Below, piece after piece: positions 22,330-63,502 of a DNA stretch of 64,000 nucleotides. Below the pieces are notes generated by a model, which did not search any database, was not told the origin of the DNA, and saw only the letters and a program-made list of their open reading frames with translations. Both the position numbers and the translations under genes were made by a program. Source of the DNA: Antedon mediterranea (Eukaryota > Echinodermata > Crinoidea > Comatulida > Antedonidae). The first letter of the stretch is position 1. Each line of letters opens with the position of its first letter. The stretch is from NCBI RefSeq assembly GCF_964355755.1, contig NC_092673.1:21829001-21893000 (forward strand). Reading direction: 5' to 3'.

Positions 22330-24115
22330 GAGTAGCAGGTATGGATAACAGAGAGGAAAGCTTAAGAGGTGAAAAAAGGAGTAGCAGGGGATTATAAATA
22401 AGAGAAATGATTGAGAGGTGAAGGAAAGAGTAGCATAAGTTGGTAACACAGAGTTAGGATTGAGAGGTGTAGGAAGGAGTAGCAAAAGTTGGTAACAGGG
22501 AGTTAGGATTGAGAGGTGTAGGAAGGAGTAGCAGAAGTTGGTAACAGGGAGTTAGGATTGAGAGGTGTAGGAAGGAGTAGCAGAAGTTGGTAACAGAGAG
22601 TTGGGATTGAGAGGTGTAGGAAAGAGTAGCAGAAGTTGGTAACAGAGAGTTAGGATTAAGAGGTGTATGAAGGAGTAGCAGAAGTTGATAACAGAGAGTT
22701 GGGATTGAGAGGTGAAAGAAAAGAATAGCAGAAGTTGGTAACAGAGAGGAAAGATTGAGAGGTGAAGAAAAGAGTAGCAGAAGTTGGTAACAGAGAGTTA
22801 GGATTGAGAGGTGTAGGAAGGAGTAGCAGAAGTTGATAACAGAGAGTTGGGATTGAGAGGTGAAGACAAGAGTAGCAGAAGTTGGTAACAGAGAGGAAAG
22901 ATTGAGAGGTGAAGAAAAGAGTAGCAGAAGTTGGTAACAGAGAGTTAGGATTAAGAGGTGTAGGAAGGAGTAGCAGAAGTTGGTAACAGAGAGTTAGGAT
23001 TGAGAGGTGAAGAAAAGAGTAGCAGAAGTTGGTAACAGAGAGTTAGGATTGAGAGGTGTAGGAAGGAGTAGCAGAAGGTGATAACAGAGAGTTGGGATTG
23101 AGAGGTGAAGAAAAGAGTAGCAGAAGTTGGTAACAGAGAGGAAAGATTGAGAGGTGAAGAAAAGAGTAGCAGAAGTTGGTAACAGAGAGTTAGGATTGAC
23201 AGGTGTAGGAAGGAGTAGCAGAAGTTGATAACAGATAGTTAGGATTGAGAGGTGTAGGAAGGAGTAGCAAAAGTTGGTAACAGAGAGGAAAGATTGAGAG
23301 GTGAAGGAACGAGTAGCAGAAGTTGGTAACAGAGATTTATGATTGAGAGGTGAAGAAAAGCGTAGCAGAAGTTGGTAACACAGAGTTAGGATTGACAGGT
23401 GAAGGAAAGAGTAGCAGAAGTTGGTAACAAAGAGTTAGGATTGAGAGGTTTAGGAAGGAGTAGCAGAAGTTGGTAACAGAGAGGAAAGTTTGAGAGGTGA
23501 AGAAAGGAGTAGCAGAAGTTGGTACCACAGAGTTAGGATTGACAGGTGAAGGAAAGAGTAGCAAAAGTTGGTAACAGAGAGGAAAGATTGAGAGGTGAAG
23601 GAACGAGTAGCAGAAGTTGGTACCACAGAGTTAGGATTGACAGGTGAAGGAAAGAGTAGCAAAAGTTGGTAACAGAGATTTATGATTGAGAGGTGAAGAA
23701 AAGAGTAGCAGAAGTTGGTAACACTGAGTTAGGATTGACAGGTGAAGGAATCAGTAGCACAAGTTGGTAACACAGAGTTAGGATTGACAGGTGAAGGAAG
23801 GAGTAGCAGAAGTTGGTAACATAGAGTTAGGATTGAGAGGTGAAGGAAGAAGTAGCAGAAGTTGGTAGCAGAGAGTAAGGATTGAGGTTCAGGAAAGAGT
23901 AGCAGAAGTTGGTAACATATAGTTAGGATTGAGAGGTGTAAGAAAAAGTAGCAAAAGTTGGTAACAGAGAGGAAAGATTGAGAGGTTCAGGAAAGAGTAG
24001 CAGGGGCTTATAACAAAGAGTTAGGATTGAAAGATGTAAGAAGGAGTAGCAGAAGTTGGTAAAAGAGAGTTAGGATTGAGAGGAGTAGGAAAGAGTAACA
24101 GTAGTTGGTACCGTA
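22330..24115. repeat. 49-bp minisatellite with higher-order structure, about 36 units
   Basis: The unit core is 'gtagcagaagttggtaacag' then 'agagttaggattgagaggtg' plus 'taggaagga'. Unit types differ at two places (gagttagga, gagttggga or gaggaaaga, and gtaggaagg or gaagaaaag). Between about 22790 and 23180 they cycle in a three-unit order, suggesting a ~147-bp higher-order repeat. The open frames on the minus strand are by-products. It lies downstream of the coiled-coil gene. Confidence 0.9.
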
Positions 24116-45080: not shown

Positions 45081-45260
45081 GTTTAGTTTAAAATATCGTT
45101 GAATATACTATAGTGGCAAGTTGTCTATGAGCTTTGTAAAACTTTTATTACAGTTGACCATCTATCTAAAATCTATCGAAAATGAAAATGTGCCAATCAA
45201 AAACCCACTGTACTTTATACTTTTTGTATATGTTTTGTTTTTCAGTCATCATCGATTATC

Positions 45261-48200
45261 ATGTTGCGAGGTCTTCAGCGTATTTCTATTTATAACATTT
45301 TAAGATGGAGAGCAGCTCCTTTGGTTCTAACAAATCCAAACCGAATCAGAATAGACATCTCATCCAATAGTAGATATTTGAAACAATTATATTCCTCTGT
45401 CAACAATAATCTACGAAACTCTGTTACAACCACCGATCAAGCGAAGCTTAAGATTGATTTGAATTCTGAAACTATAAAACTGGTGTTTGATGAGGTAAGC
45501 GTAGTTCAATGTCCGTTTGTTTGGTTACGAGACAACTGTCATTGTTCCAGTTGCTATGAACTATCATCAGGGCAGAAACAGAACTTGTTGGAAAACTTGG
45601 ACCTTGATATACACCCATTAAACGCCACAATAAAAGATCAATCAGTAATTGTCAACTGGTCTGATAAACACGTTAGCGAATATCCACTAAGCTGGCTAAG
45701 AGATGTCAAGTTTCCCGCAGCGACAGATCCTGAGGATGAGAGGAGATATTGGGGTTCCGAAATGACGAAATCAAAGGTATCAACTTTTTCTTATAATGAC
45801 ATCATGTCTGATAAATCCAGTTTACATTCTTGGCTTTTAAGCTTACACACAGATGGAATCACTATTGTGAATGATCTTGGAAGTGACGACAAGAATCTTG
45901 TACGATTGGCCAATATGGTGACGCACCCAAGAACTACATGTCATGGGTAGGAATATTATTATTATATCAATATTTATAATAATATTTCTGATGATGATAA
46001 TTTATTATGGTTATGATTATTAATCGTTATAAGTTTTCACAATCATCATGTTGATTGTCATGGAACTAGTCGGTGTGGTGGCGGTATTCACAGCAGGTTC
46101 TGGGTTTAATTTGATTGTTTGGATTTACTCCTTTTTTAAAATTTTTTTAATTTATTTTTCTTTCATACTTTTTATTCATTTTTACAAGGGTGTGATAATA
46201 ATGATGTACCTGATAATGATTTGCTTGGGATGTTGTTAAAAATGTTATATATTTTGTATTAGCCCTGTGATCAGTTTCTGCATGTCGAGAAAATGGATAC
46301 AGTAGGCCTGCTGTAAATAAGCCCCTCCCTTCCATCCCCAATAAATGGAGTTTAATTTCATTAGCAAATTGAAATAGCAGAATGAAAATAATGTTTTTTT
46401 TTTTGTATTTTAGGGTTGATTTTGGTATCAAACCAAATACGCTAGATCCGACTAATTTGGGCTACACTGGCAACCGACTTGGCTTACACACTGATCTGGT
46501 TTATTATTCTTTTGTACCTGGCGTTAGTATACTATACATATTTTTATTTTTTATTTCATCATCCAACAACGAGCACAAACTCACCAATTACAGGATGGAT
46601 AAACTATTTTATAGTTTATGGTGCTTATAAACTAAGTCTCATTTGAGGCTTAAGGAGTGGAGTTACAACCCTGGCACTAGGTCAGGATTGAACCCTGGAC
46701 CTTGGGAAACATGTTAACCACCAAGCTACAGCTCTACTACATATTTTTACATGAGCATTTCAGACTACAGGTTTTTTAAATAATACTTATAGATGCCCTC
46801 ACGGCAGTAAAAATTAAAAAAAATAATCTAGTAATTCTGGTATATTTGCTTTATTTATTATGTAAATTTCGTAAACTCGGAAAACATAATTACCAATAAG
46901 AACAACTTCCAGTCCACTCAGCTGTAAATAAGTGCCTGGTTGAAAAATACTAGGGGGGATAAGGCGGTGTGGAAAGGAACTGGCAACCATACCACGTAAT
47001 ACTTAAGCTCTGTCTACACTATCAAACTAGTTTGACAAAAAAAGGGTGATGTGCCTAAATGGTAGTGATGTACCCAAATATGGTAGTGATATGACATCAT
47101 CATGTCCATATAATGGGCACATCAAAGTTTTTTGTCACATAAAGTTTGATAGTGTAGACCATCAGCTAACAGCTAACAACTCATTCCCCATTCAGAATAA
47201 ATACTGGACTTTAAATTTTAAAGAGTGATTGACTGATTAAAAACTTAATTAAATTGTTCTCTGCATATATTTTTCTAGGTGCTAGTACTACATTGTATCA
47301 CAATGAGTGAAGATGGTGGATTGAGTGAGTTTGCAGATGGCTTCAAAGTAGCGTACGACTTACAGAAAGAAGACCCTGAAACATTTGACGTGCTAAGCCG
47401 TGTGCCTTTAGCATATCTTGATGATGGGGTGCACGGAATGTCTAAGACCAATTATATTTTAATGCATCAGAAACCAATTATAAGGTATTTATATTTTGTA
47501 AATCAGTATTTTTTGTATCAGTATCAGTAAAGTGCTATTCACATAGCAGGGGAGAATTCAGGCGTGTGGGGGGGGGGGGAGGGGGGTGTGGATGAAGCCA
47601 GCCCAGGCCTCTGCTAAATTTCATAAATTGTAATGCAAAATATGGGAAATTAAATTAAGTTCAAGACTTCACTTCACTACTTTTAAACCCCTCTATTCCA
47701 AGATCCTGGATCCGCCACTACATATATTATTCATAAAACCTGTTGTTTGCTTCTCAGTTGATATTGTCTTTTTCAGATTGAAAGAAAATAGTGAAATTAA
47801 ACAAATTTCACTTGGTTACCCCCACCTAAATAGTCGTATGAGTGTAGGTATTGAAGACGTAAAGAAAGTGTACAAAGCAATGAAGACATTCTATACTGCC
47901 CTCTATAAAAAAGAAAACCTAGTGTCGTTCAAGTTACATCCAGGTATGTATAAGATTAATTATCTTGATGATTTTGTCATTTCAGCTGTTTTAATTTTAC
48001 AAAAGTTTGAATGTCTGTGAATCATGTGATAGTCATGATGAGTGTAAGATGTCTTTACTCTCATTGTTACTCACCAAAGTTGTTGGTCCTGTAATCATAC
48101 ATTTCTCATTACAGAACTAGTTAACCATTTCCCAATTAGTTTATTTGAGTAGGCTAAATTACGAATTTCCTCACTTTCGAGTTAAGCTTGAGATTGATAA

Positions 48201-52600: not shown

Positions 52601-54847
52601 AACGCATTGACGTATTGACGAAAAGTGATGTATTGCGTCGCTAGTGGGAACCACGCTTTAACCTTGGTTCCCACTAGAACGTAACGCAAGGACGTAAACG
52701 CAACGCAAGCGTTTTAACCAATGACAAGCGAAGTTATAGACAGTTACCAATCACAAGCGAATAAGACATCGCTTGTGATTGGTCAATTCACTTGCGTTGC
52801 GTTCCGTCCTTGTGTTGCGTCGCTAGTGGGAACCACGCTTAAAGCACCAATGTATTATTAACCAAAAATAGTGGTTAATTTTTACGTTAAGCTTGGTTCT
52901 CACTAGCTACGCAACGTAACGCAATCTACGCAACGTAAGAAAATGCCCTTCCAATCATTGTGTTTGTCCCGCCTGCGTGAAATAAAACCTACGATGTTTG
53001 CAGCAATACAGCACTTTGCGTCGATACGTTGCTGCGTTGCGTTCTATTGGGAACCACGCTTGTGGGTGATACACGATCACAATTGTGGTTGTTTTTATGT
53101 TTCACGATTTCACGTGTCACATTCCAAATACTTACACAAGGCTCGTACATATAAAATGGCAAATCGTTATGAAGACATAAACGACATCCAGTATACGCAA
53201 GATTATTTGGTTCTGGTTTGCTCTTCACTTCCCAGTCGATACTATAATTAAAATAATAAAATTCGTTAAGCTTGTCCCACTAGAACGTAACGCAAGGACG
53301 TAAACGCAACGTAGGCCTAAGCGTGTTGACCAATGACAAGCGAAGTTATAGACAGTTAGCAATCACAAGCGAATAAGCCATCGCTTGTGATTGGTCAATT
53401 CACTTGCGTTGCGTTACGTCCTTGCGTTGCGTCGCTAGTGGGAACCACGCTCCCAAAGAAAATAAGGACGTACGTACGTGCGCGTACGAATGATCGCAAA
53501 CCGTATCAAGCTTGGTTCCCACTAGGACACAACGCAAGGACGTAAGACGCAACGCAGGCGAACTGACCAATCAAAAGCAATGGATTATTCGAACTGTCGC
53601 TTGTGATTGATCAATTCCCTTGCGTTGCGTACTAGTGGGAACCAAGCTTAAAGCTACACTGACACTTTTCGGTTTCATGGAACGTAAGACGTGTTCAATA
53701 AAGCGCGGTTCCCACTAGGACGCAACGTAACGCAATCTACGCAACGTAAGCAAATGCCCTTCTAAAATAATTGTGTTTTCGCCCGCCTGCCTGAAATCAA
53801 ACCTGCGATGTTTGCAGCACTATTGCGTCGTCGGTTCCCTTGTGATTACGCAATACAGCAATTTGCGTCGATACGTCGCTGCGTTGCGTTCTAGTGGGAA
53901 CCACGCTTTATCAGGATTTATTAAAAAATTATTGCAATTAGATCTTTACCAAAATTAAAATACAGATAGATATATGGTCAAGGACCACTCCATTAAATTG
54001 TGGGCAATCCGGACCAGGGTCTACAAAATAATTGGGGGTTTTTTTTCAGGAGAGAATTTTACAGTAGGAGTAGGAGTGCCGTAACGTATATGAATTTAAA
54101 TGAGAACCGAGGGAAAAACACAATTATTATAGTTCGTTCTTACCCGTAGCATGTTGATCTAGGATGTCCAACTCGTTCAGTCAATGTCAACGAGGCGTCC
54201 CTTTCCGTTCCCATACCGGTCACTAAATTGATCCCATGCGTGTGCAGACTCACCATCCAGGAATACAAAGCATCGTCATCATTCATTAAATCTTGAAACG
54301 AAAACTTTGCCAACTTATCTTTGGTCATCTCAGATCCCCAGTAGCTGACCTTTAGCTCCTGGATATGGTCTGTTACTTGCGGAAATTTGTAATTATGAAG
54401 CCAATTTATTGGATACTCGCTCGTATGTCCGTCCGTCCAGTAAATGGTCATCTTCTCTGAATCCATGTTGGCATCTCTGGCAATGACGTCGTCGACGTCA
54501 AAGTCATCCACGAGGATCTTCCGCTGTAAACTAGACTTATCAAAACATTCGTCGCAAGGACAATTGTCCCTTAACCAAACGAATGGATACCGGGAACTGG
54601 TTTTGTCGTCAAATAAGATGTCAATTGTTTCGGATTTGTTATCAATGTTATAAGTGGATGCAGCATGTTCTCCACCTGGGCTGTATGTTGCAGTAGTTAG
54701 ATATTTCTGTGTTGATAGTCGTTGGTTTTGATGAATGCAAAGATGTCTGTTTGTTAGTCGGTGGGTTACGATTGCAGATGTCGTAATCGGAAAGGTTTTC
54801 CTCAAAATCGATAGGCCCACATTTGTACGTGACAGAACTCGTAACAT
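49605..54847 (-). CDS. Gamma-butyrobetaine dioxygenase-like protein, paralog 2
   Basis: Five minus-strand exons: 54144-54847 (ATG at 54847), 53136-53241, 51736-51941, 50556-50722 and 49605-49771 (TAA), giving 449 residues. Exon sizes 704/106/206/167/167 and all phases parallel paralog 1 (686/109/206/167/161). A strong acceptor (TTTCACAG) lies 3 nt before the ATG, and a donor at 55223-55224 suggests a 5' UTR exon. The N-terminus is Arg/Thr-rich and presequence-like. Zinc ligands C96, C98, C101 and H141 are present. Fe(II) ligands are H259 and D261 (LHND, where paralog 1 has LHTD) and H407 (LHGR), with R422 for 2-oxoglutarate. The stretch after the HxD motif reads YMYEPC, closer to the TMLHE pattern EPCG than to PPG of BBOX1. 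The two paralogs may therefore differ in substrate, which is inference. Intron 1 carries a dense MITE cluster on both sides of exon 2. Confidence 0.87.
49860..50445. repeat. Two fragments of the 1075-type hAT MITE plus LINE tail
   Basis: 'tttgacatattttaatgcct' occurs at about 49878 and 50357, each followed by 'gcactg.tcag'. A 19-C run at 49929 and a gaatt/aattc pentamer tail (50007-50030) lie between. They fall within intron 4 of dioxygenase paralog 2. Confidence 0.55.
50939..51296. repeat. Inverted degenerate copy of the 119-693 composite repeat
   Basis: It starts with 'ctccgagagtgcatacctcc' and ends 'acctccttggcggaggtaaa', the reverse of the 119-693 termini. Positions 51108-51128 read TCCCTGGTGTAATGGTTA, very close to the start of tRNA-Glu. 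Confidence 0.6.
51503..51712. mobile_element. TIR element, family B, short copy
   Basis: Left AAAGATGTATTGTCCCCCAA and right TTTTTGGAGGACAATACTCG are inverted. The right edge is about 24 bp from the 3' boundary of exon 3 of dioxygenase paralog 2. Confidence 0.7.
52578..53909. mobile_element. Cluster of six related TIR elements, family D
   Basis: Copies are at 52578-52659, 52661-52840, 52889-53061, 53268-53452, 53508-53649 and 53701-53909. Each starts like AAGCTTGGTTCCCACTAG and ends like CTAGTGGGAACCACGCTT. They are CpG-rich (acgcaacg, gcgttgcg), and most are palindromic along their length. Two internal types alternate (with 'caatgacaagcgaagttata' or with 'atgtttgcagca'). Exon 2 of dioxygenase paralog 2 (53136-53241) lies between copies 3 and 4. 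Confidence 0.85.
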
Positions 54848-55224
54848 TGTCTGTGAAATAATATTTATAATGAATAAATATACATGGTAATCTAGTAGGT
54901 CTATAGATCATGGTCAGAGAAGATCATTTTGTTTAGCATACTGGTGCTTCCGTGGATACTAAAGTTAAACTTGATAAAGCGGATCGTTACGACCACACAT
55001 AGAAAATCCACCTCATATTAACAAGTCAAATATAATATCCACATACCCTAAATAATCTACCCATAGAGATATTATACCTAACCTAAATAATCTCCTAACC
55101 CTTTCATATTTATAACCATAAACAACACGGCCAATTTCGTTAGGATGTGCACCATCCAAATCATGATCTCATATCATCTTCTTATAATAAATTATAGTCT
55201 ATTCATGAGTTTATATATACTCAC

Positions 55225-56201: not shown

Positions 56202-59200
56202 ATGTCAAAGTCTCATATACTGCCCTCAAGGGCAAATCAAAGTTCTGCAGCGGACGAGCAGTATGTCAAACCGTCTTTAGAGAACAAACGAGAAGATTGG
56301 AGGAAAGCGAAAGAATTGGAAGAAGCGAGAAAAGCTGGAACTGCTCCTGCTCTTGTGGATGAAGAGGGAAAGTATGACCTTTTTTAGCTATAATATTTTA
56401 TTGAATACTCTGTAAATAATAACATGATGCATGTAAGAGGTTGTATAGAGAAAAGTAAAATGATATGAGACTAACATTTTATTTGAGATATCACTTGATA
56501 ATCAATGAAATATTGGTTACTTTTATTTACTTTTTCTATGGCCGTGATTAACAACTTTATTACATCTACAAAATAACCTATTCAAAGTCTTATTTAGTTA
56601 ATCTTCATTTTTCATGTTTTTTGGGGACAATACATTTGTAACTGGTGTACCTCTTCAGTACAAGACTGTTCTCCCAGAGAGCCTATTAATAAATGATTAT
56701 ATTACATAGCCTATGTAAATACGCGAACGTGATTGGTTGAAACTGCATCACATGACTACCGCTGCGAGGATCGTAAATCGTATATATCCTCGAGAACGAT
56801 GATATTGACTGTGTAATTTTCGCGTAATAATCGTGTCCCCTGTTATTAATCATATAAATTCTCGAGTACGATGATATTGACTGTGTAATTTTCGTGTGCA
56901 ACACTCGAGTTTGCCGATAAATAAACAAAAGTCATCTACTCGATCTTGAACTCGGGTGGAATTGTCACTCCATCGCAAGACAACGTTTCATCCGCTGGGC
57001 CACGGAATTTGCTTGAAGAAAATAATCTTCTAAACTATTTAAGCTATGCATACATAGCGCCCTCATTTGTTATAAGTCCACCCTAAATGTGATGAAACAC
57101 CGTTTATGATTGGTCAATACTCACGGTAGTAACCTAGTAACTAGTACGCGCTGAACATCCGGTGATTCGGCTCCTCGAAGATCGAGAAGACGACGAATTG
57201 TTTATTCGGCCTACCTGAATATAATATTATTATTAATAGGCTTATTGATGGAAATTCTTCTGTTAATTTAAACGACCTAGGCCTAAGTGAATATTTTATT
57301 GCCAAGGAATCATTAATTAGTAATTATCTGTATATTATTCTTCGCAAGGTAAGGTGTCTAAGCAGTACAATACAATAAGGAGGCCTAGGCCCTAGCTAGC
57401 CTAGCTTCACCCAACCCAGCAGACTTGTTCTTGGCTATATAATGTAACAGATATTGCCTTTTATATCGGTTAAATATAAGATTTGACATCCCCTCGAGAA
57501 TGATATTAAGTTCTCGGGGAATATATATTTCCCTCAGCTGGCGCTTCGGGAAATATATATTCTCTCGAACTTAATATCATTCCCTCGGGGATGTCAAATC
57601 TTATATTTAACCTCTAAGCAGTCAATATCTGTATAATAGTAAAGTTTAACTTTCTTATTTTCAGAGATATTAATCCACATATTCCTCAGTACATATCAAC
57701 AGTACCATGGTATGTTGGTGTTGATCACCCGACCTTAAAACATCAACGTGTACAAGATGAGAAAAAGAAGGTTTTCAGTGGTATTGACCAGTGGTACAAA
57801 AAGGGTGTTAAAGAGGTAATCATAAAAAAGTATGAAAATCTAGATTTGATCCAGACAGATTAATTTATATTAGAATATTGTTTTTATGTACACAGAATGC
57901 TACTGTAGTATGAATATGGTGTAACCTAAAATGGGCATATACCTTTCTTCACTACAATTCATTACAGTATAAGGTATACTTAGCAGATAAAACTAAAGTT
58001 TAAAACTTTACATTTCAGGGATCAATAGCAACAAAATTTAGGAAAGGCGCTTGTACAAATTGTGGAGCTATTACCCACAAGAAAAAGGATTGCTTAGAGG
58101 TAGGTTATGTTACATATTGTTACCATTATAACCAAAATGTAGTGTTAAGTTAAATCTCTCTCTACATAAGATTAATTTAATCAATGTTATGTGCACAACA
58201 TTTCTATAAGCTTTTATGACATGAAATGCGTTTTTAGTTTTACAAATATGAAGTATGTATTGATTTACTGTACAATTAGTGATGGTTCCAGATTGTTTTT
58301 TAAATGGGGTTAATGTCCTATCTTTTACATTGTGTTTTCTACAATTTATTGGAGGCCGGCTAAGCCTGAACTTGAATCCGACAATATGTGTGTGTTTCTT
58401 AGAATTTGTACAAGTATGAATGAGCATTCCCACTTAAACTTTTACTATGTACTGTAAAAAATTACTGTGTATATTTTGTCTCTTACAGAGACCAAGAAGA
58501 GTTGGCGCCAAATTTACAAGTAGCCAAATTGCACCCGATGAGCATGAACAACCCAATTTGGATTTTGACTACGCTAGCAAACGTGATCGATGGAATGGCT
58601 ACGACGAAGAAGACTACGATGATGTTATCAAGGAATTTGCCAAAATTGAAGAGGTATAAAAACGTAATTTTTTATATAAAGATAGAAATCATCAATCAAA
58701 ACAAGTAACTGAATGTTACATATATTATTGAGGCTATATAAGACTGTTAAGGTGTGCAGAAATATGAAATTTAAAAAGTTAAAAGTTAAACCTTTTAAAG
58801 ACAGCGAGCAGATTTGATTCAGTTTTTACTCCTCAGGCTCTGTCTACACTATTAAACGTTATGTGACAAAAATATATGATGTGCCCATATATGGACATGA
58901 TGATGTCATATCACTACCATATTTGGGTATATCACTACCATATCTGTGCACATTACACTTTTGTTTGGTAGTTTAGACAGAGCTTCAGAGCAATTTTCAA
59001 CATTCTAATATATGGTAATTTTTTAAGCTGGGTTGTTATGTGTTATGGCTTAATTTTTCCTTGCTAAAGGTTTAGTAATAATAGAAAATATTGTTATTTT
59101 GTCACAGGCAAAAAAAGAACTAAAAGCTGCTCAACTTGAGGATGAAATGATGATTGAGAAACAAACCAAAGAAAAAGAAAAGGTGAATATATTTAGAATT

Positions 59201-62200
59201 AAACACCAATGAATGTTAAGGCAGGTGCGCCGTTTACCATACCTAAAGAGCCAACAATAACGGCATGGGTTCGAGGCCAACTCGCTACTAGTTCGGTGGT
59301 GGAACAAGTTTTCTCGAATAAGGACTATAAACCGTAGGTCCAGTGTACACAGTTATAACCTGTGTGCATGTTAAAGAACCCAATTCATCATTCGAGACGA
59401 GTAGGGGGTACTCCTGGTGAACTGGTTCACAAAAAATCCCTGTATCCGGGGGATTACCACCTATCTGATAGGACAGTGATTAATTTAGTATTGATAATCC
59501 TTGGCCACTTGTGCCTAAAAGGCATAAACTAAAAAAAAATAGAAAAGAATTGTAATTATATTAAAATAATCCATGAAAGAGACTATACACTATTGAAATA
59601 AGTCTGATAATGTGTACCTGAGTGCTAAGTCTCCCCTCCCGCTAAGGTGAAATTGCTCCTGATTGTTTTGAATACTGTACGAGAAAAAAAAATACTTGCA
59701 CTGATGAAAGGCTAGTGTTGCCTGAAAGCTCTGCTACTTTTTCTGACTGTTTTACTTATAGTTTTGCTTTAGCTTTTTGCTTATCTTATTTTCTATTTCC
59801 ATTGATACACCCACAGCATTTCATTATTTTCAGTAATTGCCTTTGGATATATTTATGCACTTATGAAGGGCTAGTGTTGCCCGAAAGCTCTGATAACTTT
59901 TCTGGCTGTTTACTTTATCGTTTTGATTTAGCTTTTCGCTTTTTTTTTTTTTTTTTGTATCGAGATCCAGCCACTGATACCCACAGCATTGTCAATTTTT
60001 TCAGTAATTTGCTTTTGGATTTATATATAGTGTATATATATATATCCAATCTGCAGACAGTACTGTTTCGATCTTAGTAGATCTCGTCAGTGCAGCTCAG
60101 GTTTCGAAATGAAATAAGCCGCAGAACTGGCACAATATATAGGCTGAGCCAGGTATGCGGGACATGGTACACTGATTATGAACACAAAGAGTGCACAAGT
60201 TCAACGAGCGTGCTTTGCAAAATGCTAATAGTATTCACAACAAAATGCACCGTTTCGAAATGAAGAGTGCTCTACAAAACAACATACTATATATGTATAT
60301 ATCAGAAAGTAGAGGAGCATAATATCCAATCTGCAGACAGTACTGTTTCGATCTTATTAGATCTCGTCAGTTCAGCTCAGGTTTCGAAATGAAATGTACC
60401 GCAGAACTGGCACAATATATAGGCTGAGCCAGGTATGCGGGACATGGTACACTGATTATGAACACCTATATATAAATATATGTGACAAATGTGTTTTTTT
60501 TTATTGAAATAAGCCTGATAGGATATAATGACATACAAACTGTTTCTGAAACTAATTTTATTTTGGTTAAAAGGGAGACAGTGACAATAGTGAAGATGAA
60601 GACAAGTATGCAGATGATTTTGACATGCCTGGTACAAACTTTGACAGCAAAAGGTTAGTTAATTCAAGTTACAGATTTCATTTTGACATGCCTGGTACAA
60701 ACTTTGACCGCAAAAGGTTAGTTAATTCAAGTTACAGATTTCATTTTGACATGCCTGGTACAAACTTTGACAGCAAAAGGTTAGTTAATTCAAGTTACAG
60801 ATTTCATTTTGACATGCCTGGTACAAACTTTGACAGCAAAAGGTTAGTTAATTCAAGTTACAGATTTCATTTTGACATGCCTGGTACAAACTTTGACAGC
60901 AAAAGGTTAGATAATTCAAGTTACAGATTTCATTTTGACATGCCTGGTACAAACTTTGACAGCAAAAGGTTAGTTAATTCAAGTTACAGATGTCACTTTG
61001 ACATGCCTGGTACAAACTTTGACAGCAAAAGGTTAGTTAATTCAAGTTACAGATTTCATTTTGACATGCCTGGTACAAACTTTGACAGCAAAAAGTTAGT
61101 TAATTCAAGTTACAGATTTCACTTTGACATGCCTGGTACAAACTTTGACAGCAAAAGGTTAGTTAATTCAAGTTACAGATTTCACTTTGACATGCCTGGT
61201 ACAAACTTTGACAGCAAAAGGTTAGTTAATTCAAGTTACAGATTTCATTTTGACATGCCTGGTACAAACTTTGACAGCAAAAGGTTAGTTAATTCAAGTT
61301 ACAGATTTCATTTTGACATGCCTGGTACAAACTTTGACAGCAAAAGGTTAGTTAATTCAAGTTACAGATTTCATTTTGACATGCCTGGTACAAACTTTGA
61401 CAGCAAAAGGTTAGATAATTCAAGTTACAGATTTCATTTTGACATGCCTGGTACAAACTTTGACAGCAAAAGGTTAGTTAATTCAAGTTACAGATTTCAT
61501 TTTCACATGCCTGGTACAAACTTTGACAGCAAAAGGTTAGTTAATTCAAGTTACAGATTTCACTTTGACATGCCTGGTACAAACTTTGACAGCAAAAGGT
61601 TAGTTAATTCAAGTTACAGATTTCATTTTCACATGCCTGGTACAAACTTTGACAGCAAAAGGTTAGTTAATTCAAGTTACAGATTTCATTTTCACATGCC
61701 TGGTACAAACTTTGACAGCAAAAGGTTAGTTAATTCAAGTTACAGATTTCATTTTCACATGCCTGGTACAAACTTTGACAGCAAAAGGTTAGTTAATTCC
61801 AGTTACAGATTTCATTTTGACATGCCTGGTACAAACTTTGACAGCAAAAGGTTAGTTAATTCAAGTTACAGATTTCATTTTGACATGCCTGGTACAAACT
61901 TTGACAGCAAAAGGTTAGTTAATTCAAGTTACAGATTTCATTTTGACATGCCTGGTACAAACTTTGACAGCAAAAGGTTAGTTAATTCAAGTTACAGATT
62001 TCATTTTGACATGCCTGGTACAAACTTTGACAGCAAAAGGTTAGTTAATTCAAGTTACAGATTTCATTTTGACATGCCTGGTACAAACTTTAACAGCAAA
62101 AGGTTAGTTAATTCAAGTTACAGATTTCATTTTGACATGCCTGGTACAAACTTTGACAGCAAAAGGTTAGTTAATTCAAGTTACAGATTTCATTTTCACA

Positions 62201-63190
62201 TGCCTGGTACAAACTTTGAAAGCAAAAGGTTAGTTAATTCAAGTTACAGATTTCATTTTGACATGCCTGGTACAAACTTTGACAGCAAAAGGTTAGTTAA
62301 TTCAAGTTACAGATTTCATTTTGACATGCCTGGTACAAACTTTGACAGCAAAAGGTTAGTTAATTCAAGTTACAGATTTCATTTTGACATGCCTGGTACA
62401 AACTTTGACAGCAAAAGGTTAGTTAATTCAAGTTACAGATTTCATTTTCACATGCCTGGTACAAACTTTGACAGCAAAAGGTTAGTTAATTCAAGTTACA
62501 GATTTCACTTTGACATGCCTGGTACAAACTCTAATAACCAAAACATGTACAGTAAATGATTCATCTTTTTCCTTTGGCTCTAGTTGAAGGCGTTTGTTGA
62601 TAATAACAGCATTTTATTTATAATTTTAGACGTATTACAGTGAGAAATCTGCGTATTCGTGAAGACACAGCCAAATATTTGTACAATTTAAACCCAAACT
62701 CTGCGTACTACGATCCGAAAACGAGATCAATGCGTGGAAATCCATTCAAAGACACCGGCAGGCATCCTAATGAGTAAGTCTAGCATTTATTCTGTTCTTA
62801 CAATTTAGTTTCTTTTTGTTCATATCCTTACAGTTAAACTTTCTTTCAAGTTGTTCATATTGTAAATTGTTTTAACCATTGCTACTATCAATCCTAGGCT
62901 AACCAGATAACTTGTAGGTCTTGTACTCATCGGTCATTGTTAATTCAAAATCGTAATGAAGAATATACTGTTTAGGTTCACCCTCTATAAATAAAGTGAA
63001 ATTAAAAAAAAAATAAATAAACTCAAAATAATATTTAATCATGTTGTGTTATATTTGATACAAGAAGGTGCAGATCATTATCAATAGAAAAACAATGTTA
63101 ATTTCCTTGTTGTATGTTTCAGTTTAAAATATGCTGGTGAGAATTTTGTTCGCTCAAGCGGAGATACTGGAAAAATGGCCAATGCTCAAT
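56202..63190 (+). CDS. SLU7: Pre-mRNA-splicing factor SLU7, 5' part (3' end outside window)
   Basis: Eight coding exons: 56202-56371, 57665-57815, 58019-58099, 58489-58653, 59108-59182, 60574-60653, 62630-62773 and 63123-63190. They encode about 311 residues. The next acceptor is the final AG of the window. SLU7 acts in the second catalytic step of splicing and helps choose the 3' splice site in the nucleus. Highly conserved blocks are present: [79 protein letters not shown] and [12 protein letters not shown]. The CCHC zinc knuckle has C119, C122, H127 and C132. The ATG follows an acceptor at 56177-56178, so an upstream non-coding exon (perhaps ending at 55763) is likely. The donor of exon 6 at 60654 is the first of a 30-unit array of copied donors (60622-62531), so longer exon 6 variants are possible. 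Confidence 0.95.
56770..56905. repeat. Direct repeat pair with CTCGAG motif
   Basis: 'cctcgagaacgatgatattg' (56788) and 'tctcgagtacgatgatattg' (56861) are each followed by 'actgtgtaattttcg'. Similar words recur in the palindrome at 57469-57609. Confidence 0.6.
57469..57609. repeat. Near-perfect foldback palindrome in SLU7 intron 1
   Basis: The left arm begins AAATATAAGATTTGACATCC and the right arm ends GGATGTCAAATCTTATATTT. The arms are about 60 nt with a short centre (ctcagctggcgcttc). It lies 55 bp upstream of SLU7 exon 2. Confidence 0.85.
58834..58986. mobile_element. MITE family A copy
   Basis: Left GGCTCTGTCTACACTATTAA, right TTTGGTAGTTTAGACAGAGC. Between SLU7 exons 4 and 5. Confidence 0.7.
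59218..59530 (+). repeat. Family S SINE, best-preserved tail
   Basis: Begins near a box A remnant (AAGGCAGGTGCGCCGTTTAC), has box B-like CATGGGTTCGAGGCC, then the family tail with 'gtccagtgtacacagttata', 'tcattcgagacgagtagggg' and 'ctatctgataggacagtgat'. Lies in SLU7 intron 5. Confidence 0.65.
59695..60040. mobile_element. Tandem 160-bp repeat, probable Penelope-like element end
   Basis: Two copies (from 59699 and 59859) start 'cactgatgaaaggctagtgt' / 'cacttatgaagggctagtgt', continue 'tgcc.gaaagctctg', and each contains 'tttagctttt.gctt' and 'acccacagcatt'. This end sequence resembles Penelope-like element termini as I remember them. No reverse transcriptase is present. Confidence 0.45.
60051..60095 (-). 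ncRNA. Type I hammerhead self-cleaving ribozyme, copy 1
   Basis: Read on the minus strand the parts are, in order: stem I CTGCA, core CTGACGA, stem II GATCT-(ACTA)-AGATC, core GAA, stem III ACAG-(TA)-CTGT, cleavage nucleotide C, stem I return TGCAG. All helices pair perfectly and the cleavage triplet is GTC. A 4-bp stem III with a 2-nt loop is the minimal form known from Penelope-like elements and animal retrozymes. Confidence 0.85.
60331..60375 (-). ncRNA. Type I hammerhead ribozyme, copy 2
   Basis: Same architecture as copy 1. The stem II loop is AATA in place of ACTA, and one stem I base changed (CTGAA against TGCAG), giving one mismatch. Core CTGACGA, GAAA and GTC are intact. Confidence 0.78.
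60622..62531 (+). repeat. 63-bp in-frame minisatellite duplicating the SLU7 exon 6 donor site, 30 full units plus a partial
   Basis: Each unit consists of the last coding bases of SLU7 exon 6 (encoding [10 protein letters not shown] and the first two bases of the Arg codon), the donor GTTAGT, and about 36 nt of following intron sequence. Read through, a unit encodes 21 residues beginning [10 protein letters not shown] and ending SYRFHFD, with no stop. Units are almost identical. Variants include D/H at the last position, one S-to-R, and one AAAAAGTTAG that loses the G before the donor. A 31st unit breaks off after MPGTN, and the frame stops at 62559. Confidence 0.97.
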
Positions 63191-63210
63191 GTAAGTTCGC
63201 TTAGTGTGTC

Positions 63211-63375
63211 AAAGCTCTGTCTACACTATCAAACTAATTTGACAAAAAAAGTGTGATGTGCCCAAATATGGTACTAATATGCCCAATAAGGTAGCGATAT
63301 GACATCATCATGTCCATATATGAGCACATCACATTTTTTTTGTCACATAAAGTATGATAGTGTAGACAGAGCTTA
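63211..63375. mobile_element. MITE family A copy with intact ends
   Basis: Left AAAGCTCTGTCTACACTATC, right GATAGTGTAGACAGAGCTTA. It begins about 20 bp after the donor of SLU7 exon 8 (GT at 63191), as at 19760. Confidence 0.8.
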
Positions 63376-63502
63376 AAGCACTTTTACAGAATACAAAAAT
63401 AAATAAAAACTTATTTTGAGGCTTACAGTAGTAGCTAGTGAGAAAATCATGATAATGAGTTCGGGCTAGGATTTGAACCAAACACATTGGGTTTGGTAAC
63501 TT

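Follow-up and report, generated by a model that had tools for sequence, protein, structure and literature searches.

A minisatellite across the exon 6/intron 6 junction of SLU7 in Antedon mediterranea and similar junction arrays at other genes

SLU7 and the array at its exon 6/intron 6 junction

The window analysed here, 64,000 nt of Antedon mediterranea DNA (contig NC_092673.1, 21,829,001 to 21,893,000, forward strand), contains a SLU7 gene whose exon 6/intron 6 junction is repeated as a 63-bp minisatellite of 30 complete units. The SLU7 protein functions in the second splicing step. The coding exons were found on the forward strand: exon 1, from the ATG, at 56202-56371 (joined reading frame, splice signals and match to human SLU7), exon 2 at 57665-57815, exon 3 at 58019-58099, exon 4 at 58489-58653, exon 5 at 59108-59182, exon 6 at 60574-60653 if spliced at the first donor of the array, exon 7, which carries the RITVRN block and the acceptor TTTTAG|ACG, at 62630-62773, and exon 8 at 63123-63190, with the gene extending beyond the window. 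Exons 2, 4, 5 and 8 were placed by the joined reading frame, exon 3, which encodes the zinc knuckle, by this frame and the human match, and exons 6 and 7 by frame and human match. Exons 1 to 8 join into a single protein frame, which matched human SLU7 (5xjc_Z) with an E value of 1.7e-119 and the Pfam family Slu7 (PF11708) with 1.7e-53. The gene bearing the array is a genuine SLU7, as the preliminary description of this DNA had named it.

Tandem Repeats Finder returned 37 rows for the window, of which the highest-scoring (score 3695) is the array at 60617-62530, with period 63, 30.4 copies, 98% matches and no indels. The interval 60574-62660, given for it before, is wider than this array, since it also covers the whole of exon 6 and the beginning of exon 7. 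Cut unit by unit, the array consists of 30 complete units at 60617-62506, followed by an incomplete 31st that runs from 62507 to about 62530. In the phase of Tandem Repeats Finder each unit consists of the last 37 bases of exon 6, which in unit 1 are the end of the exon itself, and the 26 bases with which intron 6 begins; the exon-like part reaches about 43 bases when mismatches are allowed. Fourteen of the 30 units equal the consensus, and the remaining differences amount to 18 changed cells at 9 positions, among them a G6C variant shared by units 17-19 as a run, while other units carry private variants. A whole-genome search with the 63-bp unit gave 30 matches, none of them outside the SLU7 array, although a missing match in such a search is no proof of rarity.

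The donors of the array lie at 60654 + 63k, with k running from 0 to 29 and the last at 62481. Their GT is intact in all 30 units and AG|GT in 29; the complete AAG|GTTAGT is present in 27, two donors having T>A at +6 and one G>A at -1. The predicted U1 pairing is -6.7 kcal/mol for 27 of the 30. Read on from exon 6, the frame has no stop between 60571 and a TGA at 62557-62559 (662 aa), the first in-frame stop upon intron retention through the array. The roughly 30-fold donor amplification, the high identity of the units and their stop-free, frame-keeping length, all noted in the preliminary description, are thus borne out, and so is the motif TTACAG at unit positions 53-58, which is invariant in all 30 units. 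As a candidate acceptor, this motif has an upstream tract with a pyrimidine share of 0.56, within the 0.50-0.81 of 11 SLU7 acceptors; the distance from donor to TTACAG inside one unit is 21 nt, so that it would need pairing with the donor of an earlier unit.

From phase and protein continuity we propose donor 1 (GTTAGT, 60654-60659) as the normal donor, with an intron of 1976 nt (60654-62629). Splicing at this site joins NFDSKR|RITVRN, and the alignment with human SLU7 crosses NFDSKRRITVRN without an insert; first-donor splicing would therefore yield the conserved protein. Donor 30 (62481-62486), if used, would leave an intron of 149 nt and add 609 residues.

A SLU7-like paralog with similar junctions was found on contig C10 (12257974-12261021). 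Its exon 6 ends in ...TTCGAAAGCAAAAG|GTGCGTTCG, in single copy and with no array, and the array is hence not common to both SLU7 copies. A protein search at this paralog revealed no match for exons 3-4, the zinc knuckle included. Exon 7 of the paralog has its own threefold in-frame tandem duplication. Introns of SLU7 itself hold interspersed elements at about 58837-58987 and 63210-63376. Their ends are inverted, with GCTCTGTCTACACTAT on the left and a near reverse complement of it on the right, and another copy lies past the window.

Junction arrays at other genes

The whole assembly was searched for runs of three consecutive donor-like motifs, using eight motif searches on both strands and a reversed-pattern control, and 30 donor-bearing arrays (L014-L043), taken from among the matches listed, were inspected at their sense-upstream flank. 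Six of the 30 begin on a 5' junction of a gene that could be identified. These are TDP2 (31 bp, about 28 units; exon match E 1.4e-10), DHX8 (L016, from C1:17776255 onward; 37 bp, about 23 units in two rows of Tandem Repeats Finder; E 9.8e-20), an axonemal dynein heavy chain (L044/L032, C1:19363306-19368754; 68 bp, about 80 near-identical units over 5.4 kb; E 5.3e-15), a STAT5-like gene (69 bp; E 1.3e-11), HUWE1 (30 bp, 3 units; E 1.2e-13) and eIF3L (29 bp; E 7.4e-5 over 20 residues). DHX8 is a second spliceosome gene with a junction array, and its 37 bp are not a multiple of three.

Pfam searches with the upstream stretches passed the curated cut-off for STAT only; TDP2, dynein and HUWE1 gave weaker matches and DHX8 none, and the names of these four genes therefore rest on PDB matches. 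The downstream exons of TDP2, dynein and STAT5 match the same proteins as their upstream exons, and in solved chains the exons flanking the array abut without a gap both for STAT5 (7tva, 147-197, then 198-255) and for dynein (8j07_g3, 2863-2899, then 2900-2981). For DHX8 and HUWE1, what we take to be the downstream exons were recognised by eye; Pfam matched neither. Four further arrays (L019, L023, L025 and L026; 17, 55 and 53 bp) have open exon-like upstream stretches ending in CAG|GT. Those of L019 and L023 look exonic and gave no Pfam match, while L025 and L026 form one family that may be exonic, the L025 stretch matching DUF212 with E 0.014, below the cut-off. In the remaining 20 of the 30 arrays no exon was seen by eye in the 180-240 bases upstream.

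With SLU7 included, the seven periods are 63, 31, 37, 68, 69, 30 and 29 bp, three of them divisible by three. Read-through stays open only in the units of SLU7 and HUWE1. In the STAT5-like unit the second codon is a stop, and the units of TDP2, DHX8, dynein and eIF3L shift the frame; in five of the seven arrays, splicing at a downstream donor would therefore introduce a frameshift or a stop.

A donor-specific enrichment of such arrays was considered and rejected. Counts of the triple donor motif against its reversed control (each as forward+reverse) were 711+504 against 1740+615, 434+247 against 265+183, 3+56 against 5+14, 44+42 against 54+8, 23+7 against 94+62, 23+101 against 6+12, 86+166 against 1381+73, and 489+246 against 208+198, thus above the control in some searches and below it in others. 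Because overlapping matches are dominated by single arrays and the direction relative to the control is mixed, we claim no enrichment. Tandem arrays are common in this minisatellite-rich genome: in the window and eleven 10-kb samples (174 kb together), Tandem Repeats Finder gave 22 rows of at least 200 bp with a period of at least 10, at about 15 places and several with about two copies. The presence of junction arrays in at least seven genes suggests that the genome repeatedly amplifies, and tolerates, copies of splice junctions; tolerated arrays of this kind are possible raw material for new introns.

Apart from SLU7, the window holds a 49-bp minisatellite at 22330-24110 (36.4 copies, 85% matches) and two stretches resembling the N-terminal part of gamma-butyrobetaine hydroxylase (PF06155), at 45186-45950 on the forward strand (E 4.6e-12) and at 54140-54907 on the reverse strand (E 6.9e-16).

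Donor choice in the SLU7 array

We consider it very probable that the SLU7 array is an exon-intron-boundary minisatellite, or 'mirage', which behaves as intron, has its first donor taken and has no special tie to the role of SLU7 in splicing. A short stretch composed of about 37 bases from the end of exon 6 and about 26 from the beginning of intron 6 would first have been duplicated; unequal exchange or slippage would presumably then have multiplied it to 30 homogenised copies. The spliceosome would pick the exon-proximal donor at 60654, the whole array would leave with the intron and ordinary SLU7 would result, the downstream donors being decoys that are rarely if ever used. The comparison between genes points the same way. 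Much use of downstream donors would damage most of these conserved genes, and the simplest account is that splicing uses the first donor and discards the array with the intron; as downstream donors break the frame or add a stop in five of the seven arrays, first-donor use is, judged from sequence, likely the general rule across junction arrays.

Several observations weigh against this view. The donors are equal or near-equal in U1 pairing, so strength does not single out donor 1, and the SLU7 and HUWE1 units are in frame and open, so that downstream use would be tolerable there. The inspected arrays are non-random picks, found through their intact donors. In addition, donor columns carry fewer changes on average than the other columns of the unit in all four arrays compared: 0.33 versus 0.40 per column in SLU7, 0.50 versus 1.20 in TDP2, 0.17 versus 0.61 in DHX8 (8 units followed) and 0.00 versus 1.06 in dynein. 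A few highly variable columns elsewhere drive this difference in means, and a test by columns did not reveal it: pooled over SLU7 (29 units), TDP2 (23 units, leaving aside 5 of 28 that departed by at least 20%) and dynein (75 units), variation touches 2 of 18 donor columns and 15 of 144 others. The constraint tests are of low power, and the lower donor means weakly leave room for some constraint on the donors.

The preliminary description had put forward a ladder of SLU7 proteins with 0 to about 29 extra inserts of 21 residues. On this reading donors 1-30 would be used to some extent, and 0-29 inserts would lie between KYADD...DSKR and RITVRN. We regard this as improbable, even though GT is present in every unit, the frame is open throughout, 63 is divisible by three, the donors pair nearly equally with U1 and their columns hold somewhat fewer changed cells than the others. 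An open frame is unsurprising by chance, since nine random changes leave the unit stop-free with P = 0.68. The multiple of three and the open frame are also less telling because one period in three is divisible by three by chance, because some 37 of the 63 bases derive from coding sequence by copying and because the units hardly differ; among the junction arrays three of seven periods are divisible by three. Among the 189 possible single changes of the unit, 148 are nonsynonymous, 33 synonymous and 8 stops, and the nine distinct changes seen among the SLU7 units comprise 7 nonsynonymous and 2 synonymous ones, as expected without constraint, albeit at low power; the varying positions fall at 6 of the 37 exon-derived and 3 of the 26 intron-derived bases. 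At this power the sequences of the extra units bear no apparent mark of coding. An insert would moreover split a block that is conserved from human to Antedon and that the donor-1 product leaves whole, and the F7 and lancelet precedents point the opposite way. A functional ladder is accordingly not what the comparisons favour, and the form in which U1 simply takes the first site, which the same description had offered together with the last site as an alternative, seems from our analysis the better account of the two.

A coding repeat with its own fold was also considered. AlphaFold2 returned for the first 290 aa of the open reading frame a regular model with two strands per unit and a mean predicted local distance difference test (pLDDT) score of 80.2, which would fit translated inserts. 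AlphaFold2 is reported to give such models for perfect repeats of random sequence (PMC11795689), and we dropped this reading for that reason.

Still less probable is a regulatory role, in which the 29 extra U1 sites would slow the removal of intron 6 or tune it in another way and the level of SLU7 would follow the number of units; transcripts that retain the intron might terminate at the 62557 stop and be broken down. Thirty near-equal U1 sites within one intron, a read-through that meets a stop before exon 7, and the length instability reported for such arrays (PMC3087553) would all suit this role. By columns, however, three arrays show no conservation of their downstream donors beyond background (although the cell means are lower in donors), and the same structure is present in unrelated genes. 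We give an equally small chance to the idea that a copy-number-dependent SLU7 ladder feeds back on splice-site choice as an inherited, variable dial of the spliceosome. A causal tie between the array and the splicing function of SLU7, raised earlier, is best read as coincidence, although DHX8, another spliceosome protein, is among the other six. That the assembler made the array or inflated its unit number, as 98% identical units in a single assembly might suggest, is highly improbable in view of the private variants and the one-variant run in units 17-19, the similar tandem arrays at many loci and the flanks that join a continuous SLU7 gene.

With its 30 near-equal donors in a single natural transcript, the SLU7 array would make a clean test of how the spliceosome decides between identical 5' splice sites. 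A downstream donor would be safe for the frame in SLU7 and would break it in TDP2, DHX8, dynein, the STAT5-like gene and eIF3L; the set could therefore separate true first-site choice from decay of wrong products.

Comparison with known boundary minisatellites

The closest likeness is to the 'mirage' minisatellites of lancelets (amphioxus), described for Adh3 and the globins BflGb6 and BflGb9 (PMC3087553) and extended to troponin C and PGBD5 (PMC3902484), with units of 10-72 bp in Adh3 and about 150-160 bp in the globins. The lancelet arrays and the SLU7 array are alike in being minisatellite-like tandem duplications across an exon-intron boundary, in that many repeats keep AG/GT splice signals, and in that several genes of one genome are hit, here six besides SLU7. 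The lancelet arrays are also reported to leave regular splicing undisturbed and to be unstable in length, and junction amplification is set out for lancelets as a possible source of new introns (PMC3087553); length polymorphism and RT-PCR are on record for lancelets. SLU7 differs in its unusual number of near-equal donors, with 30 near-identical units, each with a 5' donor, in frame and open, and the dynein gene in having about 80 units. If the host animal is not a lancelet, mirages reach beyond lancelets.

A second parallel is intron 7 of human F7, where the most upstream donor of the 37-bp repeats is reported to be the only one in normal use (PMC6627357). F7 and SLU7 share an authentic donor in the first repeat with more donors downstream, donor 1 of SLU7 being assigned by protein continuity. 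They differ in that the F7 period of 37 bp cannot be divided by three and use of a downstream donor there shifts the frame, whereas SLU7 has 63 bp times 30. The F7 repeats number fewer than ten. The part of another article that could be consulted (PMC3778950) holds nothing on the F7 repeats.

In recently duplicated human genes, internal tandem repeats at exon-intron boundaries can alter splicing (PMC2812944). These cases resemble SLU7 in the position of the repeats; they concern recent paralogs, with the repeats linked to new introns that have transcript support, while SLU7 is a conserved gene known here from genomic sequence. Among the literature matches listed, none describes a SLU7 array. 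Boundary arrays as such are already known from the lancelet mirages and F7, and the newer part is their recurrence across the Antedon genome.

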